Assembly (NCBI RefSeq): GCF_001514065.1
Contig: NZ_KQ948428.1
Span: 63,305-127,304, forward strand
Origin: Streptomyces antibioticus
GTDB taxonomy: Bacteria; Actinomycetota; Actinomycetes; Streptomycetales; Streptomycetaceae
Length of the DNA stretch: 64,000 bases
Direction of reading: 5' to 3'
This document shows positions 7,266 to 14,446 of this stretch, one piece after another. The stretch's first letter is position 1. Each line of letters opens with the position of its first letter. A program made the position numbers and the translations under genes. The notes below the pieces were generated by a model, which did not search any database, had not been told where the DNA came from, and saw only the letters and a program-made list of their open reading frames with translations.

Positions 7266-7438
7266 GGTCCTGTCTGGAGTTCGCCGTCGTCGCCCGAAGG
7301 GCGGCCTCGCGGCGTCTGGTGCGGTGCATCGGCGTGCGGCCGGATCGTCCTCGTACTGGATGTACTTGGATGATCCGGCCGTGCGTCGAGGTGCCGTGCC
7401 AGGCGTCGCGAGGCAGGCGGGGAACTCCAGACAGGGCC
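7266..7438. mobile_element. MITE-like palindromic element flanked by TA
   Basis: The ends are near-perfect inverted repeats: GGTCCTGTCTGGAGTTC at 7266 and its complement (one mismatch) ending at 7438. TA dinucleotides lie immediately outside both ends (7264-7265 and 7439-7440), as expected for a TA target duplication. The interior is itself an imperfect palindrome, with arms around CGGCCGGATC meeting near 7352. No transposase is encoded. This layout fits a non-autonomous element mobilised by an IS630- or IS5-group transposase; the family is inferred. The right flank supplies the TAG stop of the neighbouring gene. Confidence 0.75.
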
Positions 7439-9513
7439 TAAGCCGCCCGCTGTTCGTCCTGGCGTTCCGGCAGCGGCACCTGGGGGCCGTCCGACTCGTC
7501 CAGCCACCGGCGGAGCACGCGGTGGACGTGTTCGGCGCCGACGAGTTCCTCCGCGTCGCCGACCGGTGCGGAGAGGGCCACCGGCGACAGCAGGAACGGC
7601 CGCCCCTGCGCCCCGCCGAGGCCGCCGTGCGAGCCGATCTGCTCCTCGAACGCGAGCACCTCGCCCTCGCCCGGGTCGTACCAGGAGTTGACCATGATGT
7701 CGGCGGTGTGCGCGAAGCCGTGCGTGCGGCGTACGGCGTCGGCGGCGCCCGGTCCGAAAGCGGCCAACGGGCCGGGATTCCCGTCCAGTTGGTCGACCGG
7801 GATCTCCGTGCCGAACGGCCCGAGCACCACTCCGCCGTGCTCCTCGCTGCGCACGAGGAGGAAGCCGATGCCGGGATGGTTGGCGAGCGTCGTCAGCAGC
7901 GCCGGGTGGCGGGCGTCGATCTCCTCCTTGCTCATCCGGTGCGGCACGTCCGGGAAGGACACCAGCCCGAGGTTCCCGGAGGCCAGCACGAGCGGCTCCG
8001 AGCTGCGCCGCGCGGGGCGGTGCTGCTCGCGGCGCTCCTCGACCGGCCGGCGCAGAGCGGCGCGGACGGCCGCGCGGGCCTCGGCACCGCTGTGGGTGCG
8101 CTGCGCCTTGCGCGGCACGGGCAGTCCGCAGCCGGCCCGCACCAGGTCGCCGAGGGTGAGGCCGTAGCGGGCCTGGAAGGTCTCGCCGGGGCTCTGGCCA
8201 TGGTCGGACAGGACGACGATCCGGTAGGGACGCGGGGCGTGCTCGGCGACGTTCTCGATCAACGCCAGGGAGCGGTCGAGGCGTTCGAGGACCTTCTCGG
8301 CATCGCGGCTCGTCGGTCCGGAGTGGTGGGCGACCTCGTCGTAGGCGACCAGGTCGGCGTAGACGGCGGTGCGCCCGGCGAGCATGTCGCCCATCACCGC
8401 GGCGACCACGACGTCCCGCTCGACGACGGTCGCGAACGCGCGGATGAAGGGGTAGAGCCCGCCACGTCTCACCCGCGGCCGGACCTTGCGGAACCGCCCC
8501 CGGGTCGACTGACCGATCTCCCGCCCGACTTCCGCGACGAAGGACAGGGCGGTGCGCACGGCGTTGGCGGGGTCGGAGAAGTACGCGAAATAGCCCGCCC
8601 GGGACCGGGTCTCGCGGCTGCGGCGGCGGGTGGCGATGGACAGCACGAGCGCCTGCTCGTCGGCGCCGCCGCTGAAGAGGTTCCCGCGGCTGGCCCCGTC
8701 GACGCCGAGCAGACCGCCGTCACCCGTGCGCTCGACCGCCCGGCGCTGGAGCTCGGCGGCGCTGGTGGGGCGGTTGCAGACCATCACCTCCCGGCTGTCC
8801 TTCTCGTACCAGCGGAACGCCGGCACGTCCTCGTTGCTGCCGTGCAGGATGCCGAGCTGGCTGGCACCGGTCTGGCTGGACCAGTCGGTGCGCCACGGGG
8901 TGAGCCGGTGGGTGCCGCCGTCGAGCCAGCGGGCGAGCGTCGGCATGACGCCCGTACCGGCGGCGACCCGCAGCACGTCGTACCCGACGCCGTCGAGCTG
9001 GAGGAAGACCACCCCCGGGGCGGACGGCGCGGCCGGGCCGCCTCTGCGGCGGCGGTCGGCGAGCCGGTAGAGGCGGCGCCGGTAGGCGTCGTCGTCCCGC
9101 ACGGCCAGGGCGGCCCCGGTCGCGGAGGCGACCGCCGACATCACGGCGGCCACCACGACCGCGGTCTCCCACGCGGCCGCGCCCCGCTCGGTCGGGTTCA
9201 GCCGCAGCGCCAGCAGGAGCAGGAAGCCGTTGAGGACGAAAACCAGCAGCCCGAGCACCAGGGCGGGCACCAGCAGCAGGAGGCGTACGAGGAGCGGCCA
9301 GACCAGCGCCGACAGGACACCGAAGGCACCCGCGCCGAGAGCCGCGGTGACGGCGATGTCGGTGGCGCTGTCGCCGTCCGCGGACCTGAGCTGGAAGTCC
9401 GGAAGGATGCCGGCGAGGACGAGCATGGTGATCGTGGAGACCGCCCACACCGTGACGCTCCGCCCTGCCTGACTGGCGACCCGCCGCCAACGCCCGCCTC
9501 GCACGCCCCGCAC
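7438..9513 (-). CDS. Membrane protein with holin-like N-terminus and alkaline-phosphatase-superfamily domain
   Basis: The 691-residue protein begins with about four hydrophobic segments (residues ~20-145) resembling the 4-TM phage-holin superfamily. A large type I phosphodiesterase/alkaline phosphatase domain follows. Likely metal and nucleophile residues are visible in LQLDGVGYD, the SSQTGASQ threonine, YDEVAHHSGP, LSDHGQSPG and SHGGLGG. The enzyme part is therefore a predicted phosphodiesterase or phosphatase attached to the membrane; its substrate is unknown. The start is uncertain: GTG at 9513 or GTG at 9504. The stop TAG is formed at the junction with the MITE, so the last residues may have changed when the element inserted. 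Confidence 0.85.
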   Translation of the reverse strand: MRGVRGGRWRRVASQAGRSVTVWAVSTITMLVLAGILPDFQLRSADGDSATDIAVTAALGAGAFGVLSALVWPLLVRLLLLVPALVLGLLVFVLNGFLLLLALRLNPTERGAAAWETAVVVAAVMSAVASATGAALAVRDDDAYRRRLYRLADRRRRGGPAAPSAPGVVFLQLDGVGYDVLRVAAGTGVMPTLARWLDGGTHRLTPWRTDWSSQTGASQLGILHGSNEDVPAFRWYEKDSREVMVCNRPTSAAELQRRAVERTGDGGLLGVDGASRGNLFSGGADEQALVLSIATRRRSRETRSRAGYFAYFSDPANAVRTALSFVAEVGREIGQSTRGRFRKVRPRVRRGGLYPFIRAFATVVERDVVVAAVMGDMLAGRTAVYADLVAYDEVAHHSGPTSRDAEKVLERLDRSLALIENVAEHAPRPYRIVVLSDHGQSPGETFQARYGLTLGDLVRAGCGLPVPRKAQRTHSGAEARAAVRAALRRPVEERREQHRPARRSSEPLVLASGNLGLVSFPDVPHRMSKEEIDARHPALLTTLANHPGIGFLLVRSEEHGGVVLGPFGTEIPVDQLDGNPGPLAAFGPGAADAVRRTHGFAHTADIMVNSWYDPGEGEVLAFEEQIGSHGGLGGAQGRPFLLSPVALSAPVGDAEELVGAEHVHRVLRRWLDESDGPQVPLPERQDEQRAA

Positions 9514-10085: not shown

Positions 10086-10859
10086 GTGCCGGTGGAGATC
10101 ACCTGGTGGGGGCACGCCACCTGCACGCTCCAGGACTCGGGCGTCCGTGTGCTCACCGACCCTCTGTTCGCCCGCCGTCTCGCGCATCTGCGCCGCCGTC
10201 GGGGCGCGGTGCCACCGCCCGGCGCCTGGCGCGCGGACGTGGCGCTCGTCTCCCATCTGCACTCCGATCATCTGCACATTCCGTCGTTGCAGCGACTGTC
10301 CCCGGGCACGCGCCTGCTCGTGCCCCGGGGCGCACCCCGTGCGGTGCCCGGACTCCGCCGGCTCGCCCATCTCCAGGTCACCGAGGTGGCGCCGGGCGAC
10401 GAGACGGTGATCGGGGACGTGGTCGTCCGCACGGTCCCGGCCCGGCACGACGGGCGGCGGCTGCCCGTGGGACCGCATCGCTCCCCCGCGCTCGGCTATG
10501 TCGTCGAGGGCGAGGCGCGCACGTACTTCGCCGGGGACACCGGCCTGTTCGACGACATGGCGAAGGAGGTCGGGCCGGTCGACGTGGCGCTGCTGCCGGT
10601 GGGCGGCTGGGGGCCGTACCTCGGTGAGGGGCACCTGGACGCGGGCCGCGCCGCGCAGGCGCTGGCCCGGCTGGACCCGGTCAGCGCGGTGCCGGTGCAC
10701 TACGGCACGTACTGGCCGATCGGGATGGACGCCGTGCGCCCCCATGAATTCCATGCCCCCGGCGCCGAGTTCGTGCGGCTCGCCGCCGAGCGTGCGCCCG
10801 GTGTGGCGGTGCATCTGCTGGAGCACGGGGAGAGCGTGCGCCCGGGGGTGGCCCGGTGA
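10086..10859 (+). CDS. Metallo-beta-lactamase-fold hydrolase (UlaG-like)
   Basis: The 257-residue product is a probable metal-dependent hydrolase. The family signature HLHSDHLHI lies near residue 58, an early WWGHATC strand matches UlaG/NAPE-PLD-like members, and YFAGDTGLFDDM and VPVHYGTYWPIGM supply the later metal ligands. The GTG start at 10086 has an excellent AAGGAGGC site. The stop overlaps the next start (GTGA), so it is co-translated with the DedA-family gene. The substrate cannot be told from sequence. A second, longer MBL protein of the same branch is encoded on the other strand at 11965-13041. Confidence 0.88.
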   Translation: MPVEITWWGHATCTLQDSGVRVLTDPLFARRLAHLRRRRGAVPPPGAWRADVALVSHLHSDHLHIPSLQRLSPGTRLLVPRGAPRAVPGLRRLAHLQVTEVAPGDETVIGDVVVRTVPARHDGRRLPVGPHRSPALGYVVEGEARTYFAGDTGLFDDMAKEVGPVDVALLPVGGWGPYLGEGHLDAGRAAQALARLDPVSAVPVHYGTYWPIGMDAVRPHEFHAPGAEFVRLAAERAPGVAVHLLEHGESVRPGVAR

Positions 10860-11497
10860 CCGAGACGTGGCTGGCGGCGGCCGTCAGGACCGTGCCGCCC
10901 GAGTCGACGCAGCAGGCGCTGGGGTATCCGTCGCTGTTCCTGCTGGTGCTGATCGGGGCGCTGGTGCCGGTGGTGCCGACGGGGGCTCTGGTGAGTTCGG
11001 CGGCCGTGGTGGCGTTCCATCAGACGGCGCCGTTCTCGATGGCGTTGGTCTTCGTGACCGCTTCGCTGGCGGCGTTCCTCGGGGACATGGCGCTGTACTG
11101 GCTGGGGCGGCGCGGGATGAAGTCGAAGAACGGGTCGCGGTGGCTGGAGGCGATCCGGTCCCGGGCGCCGGAGGACCGGCTGACACAGGCGCAGGAGAAG
11201 CTGGCCGAGCACGGGGTGGCGGTGCTGGTGCTGTCCCGGATGGTGCCGGCGGGGCGGATCCCGGTGATGCTGGCCTGTCTGATGGCGAAGTGGCCGCTGC
11301 GGAGGTTCGCGCGGGGCAATCTGCCGGCGTGCCTGGCGTGGGCGGTGACGTACCAGCTGATCGGCATTCTGGGCGGGTCGCTGTTCGACGAGCCCTGGGA
11401 AGGTGTGGTGGCGGCGATCGTGCTGACGGTCGCGGTCAGCGCGGCGCCGAGTGTGTGGCGCCGGGTGCGCGGGACGACGACGAAGGCCAAGGCCTGA
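10856..11497 (+). CDS. DedA-family membrane protein
   Basis: DedA proteins are polytopic membrane proteins now linked to undecaprenyl-phosphate or phospholipid flipping. This 213-residue member has a re-entrant-type hydrophobic segment (YPSLFLLVLIGALVPVVPTGALVSSAAVV), the DMALYWLGRRG segment where DedA proteins carry a conserved acidic residue, and the signature RMVPAGRIPVMLACL. Four to five hydrophobic segments are visible. The GTG start overlaps the stop of the upstream hydrolase by four bases. It ends 2 bases from the convergent ankyrin gene. Which lipid it handles is not known. Confidence 0.9.
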   Translation: MTETWLAAAVRTVPPESTQQALGYPSLFLLVLIGALVPVVPTGALVSSAAVVAFHQTAPFSMALVFVTASLAAFLGDMALYWLGRRGMKSKNGSRWLEAIRSRAPEDRLTQAQEKLAEHGVAVLVLSRMVPAGRIPVMLACLMAKWPLRRFARGNLPACLAWAVTYQLIGILGGSLFDEPWEGVVAAIVLTVAVSAAPSVWRRVRGTTTKAKA

Positions 11498-11499
11498 CG

Positions 11500-11916
11500 T
11501 CATCGGGCTCCGGCGGCGGTGAGGAGTTCGGCGGTCGCGGGGTGCGGGCCGTGGTTCGCCCACTCCAGCGGTGACCAGCCGGTTCCGTGGTCCTCACGGA
11601 GGTTCGGGTCGGCGCCGTGCGCCAGCAGTTCTCGTACGGTCTCGAGGTGGCCCCAGCAGGCGGCCGCGCACAGCGGCGTGCCCTGCGAGCCGTCGCCCGC
11701 ACTCTCCGTGTCGGGGGCGGCGCCGGCCCGCAGAAGCACACGCGCGACCTCGGCCTGCCCCTGCACGGACGCCAGATAGAGCGGGGTGGCGCCGTCGTCG
11801 TACGGCCGCTCGGCATCCGCTCCCCGCTTGAGCAGCGCCCGCACACGGTCGGCGTCCCCCGCCAGGGTCGCCTCGAAGAGCTGACGGGAGAGTTTCTTGC
11901 GCTGTCGCCGTGTCAT
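11500..11916 (-). CDS. Ankyrin-repeat protein
   Basis: A short cytoplasmic protein of 138 residues made almost entirely of ankyrin repeats. Four units are visible: LFEATLAGDADRVRALLKRG, TPLYLASVQGQAEVARVLLR, TPLCAAACWGHLETVRELLA and SPLEWANHGPHPATAELLTA. Such proteins bind other proteins; the partner is unknown. The start ATG at 11916 has only a weak ribosome site. It follows, on the same strand, the aminotransferase-like and MBL genes, with 48 bases between, and may be the last gene of that transcript. Confidence 0.88.
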   Translation of the reverse strand: MTRRQRKKLSRQLFEATLAGDADRVRALLKRGADAERPYDDGATPLYLASVQGQAEVARVLLRAGAAPDTESAGDGSQGTPLCAAACWGHLETVRELLAHGADPNLREDHGTGWSPLEWANHGPHPATAELLTAAGAR

Positions 11917-11964: not shown

Positions 11965-13041
11965 TCAGGCCCGCTCCAGCACCCGTGAGCCGCCCACCGG
12001 CAGGTCCCACAGGTCCTCCCGCGCGAGCCCTGCCTTCTCCCAGGCCGCCCGCACCCGCGTCAGCGGCTCCAGCACCGGCTCCGCCGACAGCACGAACGTG
12101 CCCCAGTGCATGGGGGCCATCCGCCGCGCCCCCAGGTCCTGGGCCGCCCGCACCGCCTCCTCCGGGTCGCAGTGCACGTCGCTGAGCCACCAGCGGGGGT
12201 CGTAGGCACCGATGGGCAGCAGGGTCAGGTCGATGCCGGGGTAGCGGCGGCCGATGCGGGCGAACCAGTGGCCGTAGCCGGTGTCGCCGGCGAAATGGAC
12301 CCGTTGGCCGTCCGGGGCCGTGAGGACCCAGCCGCCCCACAGGCTGCGGCAGGTGTCGGTGAGGGTGCGCTTGGACCAGTGGTGGGAGGGGACGAAGTCG
12401 AAGCGGACGCCGCGCAGTTCGGCCGCCTCCCACCAGTCGAGCTCGGTGACCTGGGTGAACCGGCGGCGCCGGAACCAGCCGGCCAGTCCCGCGGGCACGA
12501 ACACCGGGGTGTCGCGCGGGAGTCGGCGCAGGGTGGGAGCGTCCAGATGGTCGTAGTGGTTGTGGCTGATGACCACGGCGTCGACACGCGGCAGCGCGTC
12601 CCAGGCGATGCCCACGGGAGTGATCCGCGCCGGGGTGCCGAGGATGCGACGCGACCAGACGGGGTCGGTGAGGACGGTCAGGCCGCCGATCCGGACGACC
12701 CAACTGGCGTGCCCCGCCCAGGAGACGGCGACGGTGCGGGCGTCCACGCGGGGCAGCGGCCCCGGTTCGTACGGCAGCTTCGGGATGTCCGCGAGACCCT
12801 CGCGGCCGGGCCGCACGGAGCCCTCGCGGGCGAACCGGGCCATGGCCTTGAGGCCGGGCAGCGGGGCGGTGAGACGGTCGTGGAAGGTGCGCGGCCAGAC
12901 CCGGCGCTCGCCGAGGGGGCGGGGTTCGGCGAGCGGCGGGAAGGGCGGCGCGAACGGCGTCGCCAACGGGGTGACGGACGCCGGATCGTCGGCTTCCCGG
13001 GTGGTCGTGCTCGTGGTGGTCGACTCGGACTGCTGCGTCAT
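11965..13041 (-). CDS. MBL-fold metal-dependent hydrolase (NAPE-PLD-like)
   Basis: The 358-residue protein belongs to the branch of metallo-beta-lactamase-fold enzymes related to N-acyl-phosphatidylethanolamine phospholipase D. It shows VSWAGHASWVVRIGG, the metal motif SHNHYDHLD, HHWSKR, HFAGDTGYGHWF and MHWGTF. The first 30 residues are a Ser/Thr-rich tail of low complexity. The start was chosen at the ATG at 13041 because it overlaps the upstream stop as ATGA, rather than 15 bases earlier. It is thus coupled to the lysine-free aminotransferase-like gene. The lipid-type substrate is inferred from the family only. Confidence 0.88.
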   Translation of the reverse strand: MTQQSESTTTSTTTREADDPASVTPLATPFAPPFPPLAEPRPLGERRVWPRTFHDRLTAPLPGLKAMARFAREGSVRPGREGLADIPKLPYEPGPLPRVDARTVAVSWAGHASWVVRIGGLTVLTDPVWSRRILGTPARITPVGIAWDALPRVDAVVISHNHYDHLDAPTLRRLPRDTPVFVPAGLAGWFRRRRFTQVTELDWWEAAELRGVRFDFVPSHHWSKRTLTDTCRSLWGGWVLTAPDGQRVHFAGDTGYGHWFARIGRRYPGIDLTLLPIGAYDPRWWLSDVHCDPEEAVRAAQDLGARRMAPMHWGTFVLSAEPVLEPLTRVRAAWEKAGLAREDLWDLPVGGSRVLERA

Positions 13042-14285
13042 CGAGGAGGCTCCCATCGCTGAGCGTCGTCGCGGAGATCATCGAAAACCGACTGCAAGGT
13101 GATCAACGCACGGTGCACGTGTGGCAGTTCCAACGGTGTGGTCGAACTGAGGCATTCCTCGAGTTCCCCGTCCGTCCCGGCAAGCAACGCACCGGTCGAC
13201 AGCCGCACCCGCAGCGCCCCCAGGTCGTCGCCGAAGCGATGGCCGCCGGGGGCCGGCATGCCGAGCCGGGCGGAGAGGAACTCCTCCAGGTCCTGGGCGT
13301 CCCCGACGCCGTACGCGCCGAGCGCGGAGCGCAGCGGGCCGAGGTCGGCGTAGAGATGGCGGCCGGCCTGCGGAGGCCGGGCCAGGGCGCCGGCCGAGAC
13401 GACGGCGGTGTGCGCGGCGGCGGCCACGCGCGCGTGCAGGCGTACGGCGGCGGCGACGCGGTCGGTCACCGGCTCGGGCTCCAGCAGCGCGTAGCAGGCC
13501 GCGGCGGCCACGGGGGCGGCCACCCGGGCGCCGAGGGCGGTGAGCACGTCGAGCACGCGCGCGTGGAGGCCGTCTCCGACGTCCCCTTGGGGGAAGCGGG
13601 CGATCGCCGCGGGCCAGCCCGGCGGCAGCAGGGCGCCGGCGAGGTCGGTGACGACGGTGACCCGGTCGGGCAGCATCTCGGCGGGGCTCAGCCACATGGT
13701 GTCGTGCGGTGCGTGCACGGTGTCGCGCCAGGTCTCGTCACTGATCAGGTGCAGGCCCTCGCCCGCGGCGGCCTCCACGGCCTCGTGCAGCACCTCGGGG
13801 GGCGCCACGGTGGCGGTGGGGTCGTCGGCCACGGACAGCACGAGCAGCCGCGGGTCACCGCCCTCGTCCCGCACCCGGCGGACGGTCTCCAGCAGGGCGT
13901 ACGGGTCCGGGACACCGCCGCACTCCGCCGGTGTCGCCACATGGAAGACGGGTCTTCCCAACAGGCGTGCGTACGGCGCCCACCAGGCCGCGCAGGGCCG
14001 GGGCACCAGGACGTCGCCGCCGAGGGCCGCGGTCAGCGCGAGCAGCAGGGAGGGGGCGCCGGGGGCCGCCACGACGCGCTCGGGCCCGGCGGACAGTCCA
14101 CGCCGGGCCCAGTAACCGCATGCCGCGTCCAGCAGCCCGGGGCCGCCCCCGACGGGTTCGCTGCCGCCCTGGGCCGCCGCCGCGGCGAGCACGGCCGACA
14201 GCTCGGGCAGCACGGGCAGCCCGTCGTCCGGCAACGGCGGCCCGTAGCGGACCGGGCCGTGCCCTTCCAGGTCCGTGCGCCGCAT
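13038..14285 (-). CDS. Aminotransferase class I/II-fold protein lacking the PLP lysine
   Basis: The 415-residue protein has the layout of a fold-type I aminotransferase: a GAPSLLLALTAALGG cofactor-loop region, VPRPCAAWWAPYARLLGRPV, the LISDETW motif near residue 183 (Asp that contacts the PLP ring nitrogen) and RVRLSTGALL near the C-terminus, where the substrate-carboxylate Arg lies. At the place of the catalytic Ser-x-x-Lys (residues ~213-223) it reads VTDLAGALLPPG, and the whole protein contains no lysine at all. It therefore cannot form the usual internal aldimine. The ATG at 14285 with CGGAGGT upstream was chosen over a longer start. It is coupled by ATGA to the MBL hydrolase. Confidence 0.85.
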   Translation of the reverse strand: MRRTDLEGHGPVRYGPPLPDDGLPVLPELSAVLAAAAAQGGSEPVGGGPGLLDAACGYWARRGLSAGPERVVAAPGAPSLLLALTAALGGDVLVPRPCAAWWAPYARLLGRPVFHVATPAECGGVPDPYALLETVRRVRDEGGDPRLLVLSVADDPTATVAPPEVLHEAVEAAAGEGLHLISDETWRDTVHAPHDTMWLSPAEMLPDRVTVVTDLAGALLPPGWPAAIARFPQGDVGDGLHARVLDVLTALGARVAAPVAAAACYALLEPEPVTDRVAAAVRLHARVAAAAHTAVVSAGALARPPQAGRHLYADLGPLRSALGAYGVGDAQDLEEFLSARLGMPAPGGHRFGDDLGALRVRLSTGALLAGTDGELEECLSSTTPLELPHVHRALITLQSVFDDLRDDAQRWEPPR

Positions 14286-14446
14286 CCGTACCTCCGGGTG
14301 AGCTGCTGTGTCGCGGGGCCGTGGGGTGTCCTTCTGGCGGGTACGGCGGAGGCGTGCGCCGCCACGCTTCACGTACCCAGGGTGGCGCATGTCGATGGAG
14401 GCCTGCTCGCGTTGCGCCGGTCACACCGGCCCTCGGTGAGTGCGTC

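Follow-up and report, generated by a model that had tools for sequence, protein, structure and literature searches.

What can an aminotransferase still do once it has lost the lysine that holds its cofactor? This question is raised by a protein encoded in a 64,000-nucleotide stretch of Streptomyces antibioticus DNA (contig NZ_KQ948428.1; hereafter the window), which follows the class I/II aminotransferase pattern over 415 residues and contains no lysine. A pyridoxal 5'-phosphate (PLP)-dependent aminotransferase paralogue has lost its Schiff-base lysine once, and the resulting lysine-less lineage is under purifying selection. Judging from sequence comparison and a structural model, the protein is almost certainly a conserved, PLP-free pseudoenzyme that no longer acts as an aminotransferase.

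The frame starts with an ATG at 14285, ends with a TGA at 13040-13038 on the minus strand, and includes S182-D183-E184-T185-W186 and, from R359 onward, RVRLST. A longer open reading frame reaching up to 14390 would add two lysines, and the shorter start is favoured because a Shine-Dalgarno GGAGG is in place. The frame is no chance open reading frame, because it is itself a PF00155 homologue and has orthologues. PF00155 is the only Pfam family matched (E 1.7e-8; 34.5 bits against a cut-off of 19.7). The AlphaFold model has a pLDDT of 90.7, and comparison with the PDB ranks aspartate aminotransferase first, the nearest solved structure being that of Thermus thermophilus (1bjw and its mutants); 38 of 40 chosen sequences entered the alignment for the model. 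By model and structure comparison, the protein is thus assigned to fold type I. A sequence-only reading of this DNA had described a 415-residue product without lysine, SDETW near residue 183 and the RVRLST region, all of which are found as read in the frame, and fold-type I membership, on which that reading had staked itself, is upheld by the Pfam match, the model and the PDB comparison.

A single loss of the Schiff-base lysine

How unusual is a protein without lysine? The mean lysine content is 1.98% across the window genes as called by a crude gene caller, from which simple independence gives p of about 2.5e-4 for no lysine in 415 residues; in the same crude call, 2 of 33 window genes of at least 250 residues also have none. 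The caller chose wrong frames in high-GC DNA, and neighbour counts obtained with it were dropped and redone by tblastn. The absence of lysine from the whole protein is mildly unusual by itself, and the solid part of the observation is the loss at the Schiff-base site.

Alignment with lysine-bearing relatives places the Schiff-base column at G217, seven residues ahead of W224. In sister proteins, which are about 40% identical, this stretch is GLSKSLALGGWR, and the lysine is therefore fixed on column 217. A normal PLP internal aldimine is impossible in the window protein, as had been proposed. G217 is invariant in 98 distinct close orthologues (110 loci), whose few lysines all sit elsewhere. Across 219 distinct proteins, the column holds Gly in 167, Ala in 25, Ser in 2, Asp in 1, Pro in 1 and Lys in 23. 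The site lysine is missing from every one of the 196 relatives whose identity to the window protein is at least 46% and present in all 23 at 44% or less, in a comparison that left out seven loci that were short or contained N. The lysine-less and lysine-type sets are defined by the site itself; the independent checks are the identity gap, a tree built without the site and the linkage to a neighbouring hydrolase gene, MBL_a, described below. On the tree of 56 sequences with the active-site stretches removed (L124, L126, L131, L142, L145, L236 and near-duplicates left out), all 28 lysine-less rows group together in a single clade (100/100) nested inside the lysine-bearing proteins, and one change accounts for the loss. 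By sequence comparison, the site lysine was lost once, long ago. The first branch of the lysine-less clade consists of L272 and L273 (96/78), which both still read GGWR or SGWR, so that here the lysine was lost ahead of the neighbouring Arg. These two basal proteins keep the equivalent of Arg266 and have Ser or Ala at the lysine site, and it is possible that they provide a snapshot of the order of loss.

The lineage is maintained as protein-coding sequence. The ratio of nonsynonymous to synonymous change (omega; Nei-Gojobori) is 0.206 at the median and 0.348 at most over 199 close pairs; 120 of the 415 positions are invariant among the 98 close orthologues; and 196 distinct whole lysine-less frames of at least 330 residues were collected, a few of them irregular. 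The two checks set by the sequence-only reading, conservation of the lysine loss and purifying selection, were thus borne out, and the opposite case, in which homologues keep the lysine and this copy alone is degenerate, failed against 196 relatives that share the loss. Its suggestion of a conserved non-canonical role gains support from the clade-wide loss together with purifying selection. Complete absence of lysine did not hold up as a conserved trait: 104 of the 196 proteins have none, 76 have one and 16 have two or three.

In a survey of 392 genomes of the genus (four candidates scored per genome, and nine in a later scan), 391 give a match at E 1e-3, true aminotransferases included. By hand count, the best match lies below 1e-90 in 338 of the 392, a level that no lysine-bearing protein seen reached. 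Outside Streptomyces, the lysine-less kind is found in 21 of 30 Streptomycetaceae genomes tested (G689, G690 and 19 genomes that have MBL_a), so that the lineage occupies nine genera of the sample, Streptomyces included; a scan of 14 genomes from genus g2 did not turn it up. Nine of the 149 genomes in a phylum sample match at E 1e-8. Four belong to Streptomyces; the matches in the other five show 30-37% identity, and the three of these five that were aligned (L234-L236) bear the lysine. In two genomes, G005 and G045, both without MBL_a, the gene for the pseudoenzyme (L175, L321) is disrupted or contains an irregular insert.

The lysine-bearing sisters of Streptomycetaceae share a common ancestor with the window protein and differ from it in their intact cofactor site. 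The window's own genome encodes one (contig C8, 168655-169881). A lysine-bearing group (L301, 4847-6103; L178, L182-L184) adjoins apparent acyl-AMP ligase and radical-SAM aminomutase genes, labelled from their N-terminal letters, in an arrangement that resembles a beta-amino-acid pathway.

The former cofactor pocket

Is the lysine the only part of the cofactor site that has gone? The pocket was compared between the 196 lysine-less proteins and 20 lysine-type proteins, L234-L236 being omitted from the latter. Tyr70, Ser108, Asn194, Ser257, Arg266 and Arg386 are what we take to be the aspartate aminotransferase numbers of the pocket positions. The Asn194 position is Asn in all 20 lysine-type proteins and Asp in 194 lysine-less ones (Gly in the other 2), and the residue three before the lost lysine is Gly in all 20 and Asp in 191 of the 196. 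The Tyr70 position is Tyr throughout the lysine-type set, and Tyr is not among the five commonest letters in the lysine-less set. The Arg266 position has become Pro in 188 of the 196; the Ser of the GSK loop (Ser108) has become Ala in 162 and is kept in 9; and the Ser preceding the lysine (Ser257) has become Ala in 144 and is kept in 16. With S42, A77, D155, A216 and P225 at the Tyr70, Ser108, Asn194, Ser257 and Arg266 positions, the window protein lacks the set of PLP phosphate and O3' ligands. Other parts of the pocket stay: D183 and E184 are present in every one of the 196, R359 in 191, and D154, D155, D183, E184, D188 and H191 are near-invariant, at 98% or more.

By alignment, the loss is wider than one residue, in that cofactor ligands are gone and acids gained, with the substrate Arg and ring-nitrogen Asp both retained. 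We infer that the pocket is now acidic and PLP-free, and both PLP binding and transamination are predicted to have been lost. The sequence-only reading had offered a PLP-free scaffold, a regulatory pseudoenzyme or a PLP-binding sensor; the first two remain in favour, and the third is the least likely, the other cofactor contacts being gone.

The neighbouring hydrolase and the surrounding genes

The pseudoenzyme gene overlaps that of MBL_a, a metallo-beta-lactamase (MBL)-fold protein (Table 1). Compared with NAPE-PLD (4qn9), MBL_a gives a match of E 6.2e-61 in which the MBL metal-site motifs align, and it is predicted to be a NAPE-PLD-type hydrolase. The lysine-less gene ends, counting its last base and stop codon, in ATGA in 137 of 196 cases and in GTGA in 14. 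For at least 181 of the 196 distinct proteins, MBL_a follows this gene in the same orientation (179 by a tblastn-based script, L137 and L142 by inspection of the loci; three loci are too short); it is absent nearby in 12, comprising ten whole frames and the irregular L124 and L126. None of the 23 lysine-bearing genes is followed by MBL_a. Outside Streptomyces, the lysine-less protein occurs in 19 of 19 MBL_a-positive genomes and in 2 of the 11 MBL_a-negative genomes checked, a subset of 34 negatives. The translational coupling noted in the sequence-only reading is therefore confirmed as a start-stop overlap and usual adjacency, but not as an obligatory pairing.

The window segment 7438-11497, which carries a phosphodiesterase, a second MBL hydrolase (MBL_b) and a DedA protein, is convergent with the pseudoenzyme operon and recurs at many, not all, related loci. 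The gene directly after MBL_a, in the same orientation, encodes a small ankyrin-repeat protein (11500-11916).

Table 1. Features of the pseudoenzyme locus, in window coordinates
Feature	Position	Strand	Basis
Lysine-less class I/II aminotransferase-fold pseudoenzyme (predicted), 415 residues	13038..14285	-	Open reading frame, PF00155, alignment, AlphaFold model, PDB comparison
Shine-Dalgarno GGAGG, 5 nucleotides 5' of the ATG	14291..14295	-	Sequence reading (CCTCC on the + strand)
ATGA start-stop overlap, pseudoenzyme/MBL_a	13038..13041	-	Sequence reading
Codon of G217, Schiff-base lysine position	13635..13637	-	Alignment with 23 lysine-bearing relatives; coordinates from the start
Codon of D155 (presumably Asn194 of aspartate aminotransferase)	13821..13823	-	Alignment
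Codon of D214, three residues ahead of the lost lysine	13644..13646	-	Alignment
Codon of D183, PLP ring-nitrogen Asp in real enzymes, kept	13737..13739	-	Alignment
Codon of R359, equivalent of substrate-carboxylate Arg386 (presumed numbering), kept	13209..13211	-	Alignment
MBL_a, predicted NAPE-PLD-type MBL-fold hydrolase; further in-frame ATG at 13056	11965..13041	-	Homology search, structure match
MBL_b, second MBL hydrolase of the neighbourhood, convergent	10086..10859	+	Window gene analysis, related loci
DedA/VTT-domain membrane protein, adjoins MBL_b	10856..11497	+	Window gene analysis
Protein with holin-like segment and type I phosphodiesterase domain	7438..9513	-	Window gene analysis, related loci

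Possible functions and their significance

What could select for an aminotransferase fold without its chemistry? We propose, as the best explanation overall and with a probability of about 0.55, a non-catalytic sensor or scaffold that reuses the old cavity and acts on a partner, with the ligand, the partner and the effect on MBL_a all putative. That the protein is a ligand-binding or protein-binding regulator, and not a new enzyme, we consider rather probable. Action on the MBL_a hydrolase or its pathway, at least in part, is putative and falls a little short of an even chance. The positive, phosphate-holding site (Lys, Arg266 and the Ser-Lys loop) would have switched to an acidic one (D154, D155, D183, E184 and D214), with Arg359 staying in place. 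In a fold-type I dimer, the old cofactor cavity might then bind a metal or a small molecule of cationic or amine type, and the ligand state could be passed to the partner through direct contact, in the manner of dimeric MalY on MalT. The co-translated NAPE-PLD-type hydrolase would be the usual but not the sole partner, in what may be a membrane-lipid gene neighbourhood that takes in both MBL hydrolases, the DedA protein and the phosphodiesterase with its membrane segment. A passage of PMC10427625 presents MalY of Escherichia coli as a dimer with the PLP fold that controls another protein through direct contact. MalY retains PLP, whereas the window protein is predicted to be PLP-free, and its use here as a model for the proposed action is an analogy. 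The most specific version, in which the inactive aminotransferase has turned into an amine- or cation-sensing protein whose ligand-bound form controls a bacterial NAPE-PLD-type phospholipase within an N-acylethanolamine or phospholipid signalling module, has an outside chance; if true, it would be a module of which we found no prior description.

Several observations weigh against the sensor or scaffold proposal. The acid-rich pocket is deduced by alignment, and the Schiff-base strand is eroded or rich in Pro and Gly in L131, L143, L145, L177 and L180, in which the rest of the protein is conserved. A whole lysine-less gene without an MBL_a match above 41% is found in G430, G514, G446, G510, G361 and G418 (assemblies of 1-120 contigs); G056, G058 and G689 also hold whole copies free of MBL_a, and G690 has no MBL_a match at E 1e-30. 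Conversely, MBL_a is kept without the pseudoenzyme in G459, G288, G121 and G156 (1-140 contigs). Ten further genomes (310-1,770 contigs) with MBL_a and weak aminotransferase matches only were taken as broken assemblies and counted neither way. Pairs of lone copies give omega values of 0.216-0.338, lowest among L192, L199 and L233, which implies some role without MBL_a unless the MBL_a losses are very recent; if these losses happened independently and recently, the selection signal of the lone copies partly predates them. L207 and L274 compared with linked relatives give 0.38-0.56, as if relaxed. An obligate subunit of MBL_a, our first model, was dropped in view of the ten whole lysine-less copies that lack MBL_a and still seem to be under selection.

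The main rival, which we regard as unlikely, is a new enzyme whose acidic pocket runs a PLP-free acid-base or metal-assisted reaction on a substrate held by Arg359. The six near-invariant acidic and His residues would suit such an enzyme, as would purifying selection that extends to copies without MBL_a, but a catalytic site sits poorly with a Schiff-base strand that tolerates large changes in some members. We know of no fold-type I relative with PLP-free acid-base or metal chemistry.

Could the cofactor instead be held non-covalently? ColD, a dehydratase dependent on pyridoxamine 5'-phosphate (PMP), has His at the Schiff-base lysine position. A PLP or PMP enzyme of this kind would account for the retention of D183, the partner of the PLP nitrogen, in every lysine-less protein; however, His occupies the site in 0 of 219 proteins, and the phosphate and O3' ligands are mostly gone (Arg266 to Pro, the GSK Ser rarely kept, Asn194 in 0 of 196, and Tyr70), making it improbable.

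Slightly less probable again is a non-catalytic subunit that forms a heterodimer with a lysine-bearing sister, as LCB1 does with LCB2 in serine palmitoyltransferase. Known relatives are dimers that share an active site, and the lysine-type sister on contig C8 would supply a partner in the window's own genome. LCB1 is given in a passage of PMC3794620 as a fold-type I protein that lacks the PLP lysine and has maintained a role. LCB1 pairs with a lysine-bearing sister, but 19 of the 21 non-Streptomyces genomes with the lysine-less protein contain no other match at E 1e-10, in a search that covers close sisters and in which lysine-type sisters score 1.7e-63 to 1.4e-80.

It is very improbable that the loss is a functionally meaningless by-product of Arg-for-Lys composition or of pupylation avoidance. 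Mean lysine content is indeed 0.14% in the lysine-less set versus 0.95% in lysine-bearing relatives, and lysine deserts are common in pupylation-using actinobacteria, a passage of PMC10665810 giving 35.4% of the Streptomyces coelicolor sequences analysed. The site, however, has become Gly, Ala, Ser, Asp or Pro and never Arg, and five other cofactor contacts are altered as well. A lysine desert may be the reason for the scarcity or absence of other lysines in the protein. Finally, decay of the window copy to a pseudogene, for which broken or irregular frames in genomes such as G005, where MBL_a is missing too, might be cited, is refuted by the low omega, the whole frames and the invariant positions.

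How does the sensor or scaffold candidate relate to known proteins? It shares fold, overall length, D183 and R359 with the class I/II aminotransferases (PF00155; T. thermophilus aspartate aminotransferase) and differs from them in lacking the Schiff-base lysine and most phosphate and O3' ligands. The catalytic residue is lost and the gene maintained clade-wide, as in a fold-type I pseudoenzyme. Rv3778c of Mycobacterium tuberculosis, in the passage of PMC12910592 that treats it, is a PLP-enzyme relative without the conserved lysine and likely noncatalytic; lysine-less PLP-enzyme relatives are therefore known in actinobacteria. By that description the cysteine desulfurases and selenocysteine lyases are distant relatives of Rv3778c, whereas the window protein matches PF00155 only. 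A lysine-less class I/II aminotransferase of Streptomyces is not named among the literature matches listed, which cover subscription journals thinly and are no proof that none has been described. Nine of the ten plasmid records listed encode relatives at about 40% identity, eight of them named PLP-dependent aminotransferases or enzymes and the ninth unannotated.

Automatic annotation based on PF00155 would call the window protein a PLP-dependent aminotransferase, although its internal aldimine is impossible. A pseudoenzyme of single origin, spread over nine genera and with a lysine-bearing sister still extant, offers a clean before-and-after view of how a cofactor pocket is reused, in a family of antibiotic producers. 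If it is true that the NAPE-PLD-type hydrolase is regulated by this protein, the finding would give access to a part of streptomycete membrane-lipid biology that has received little study.
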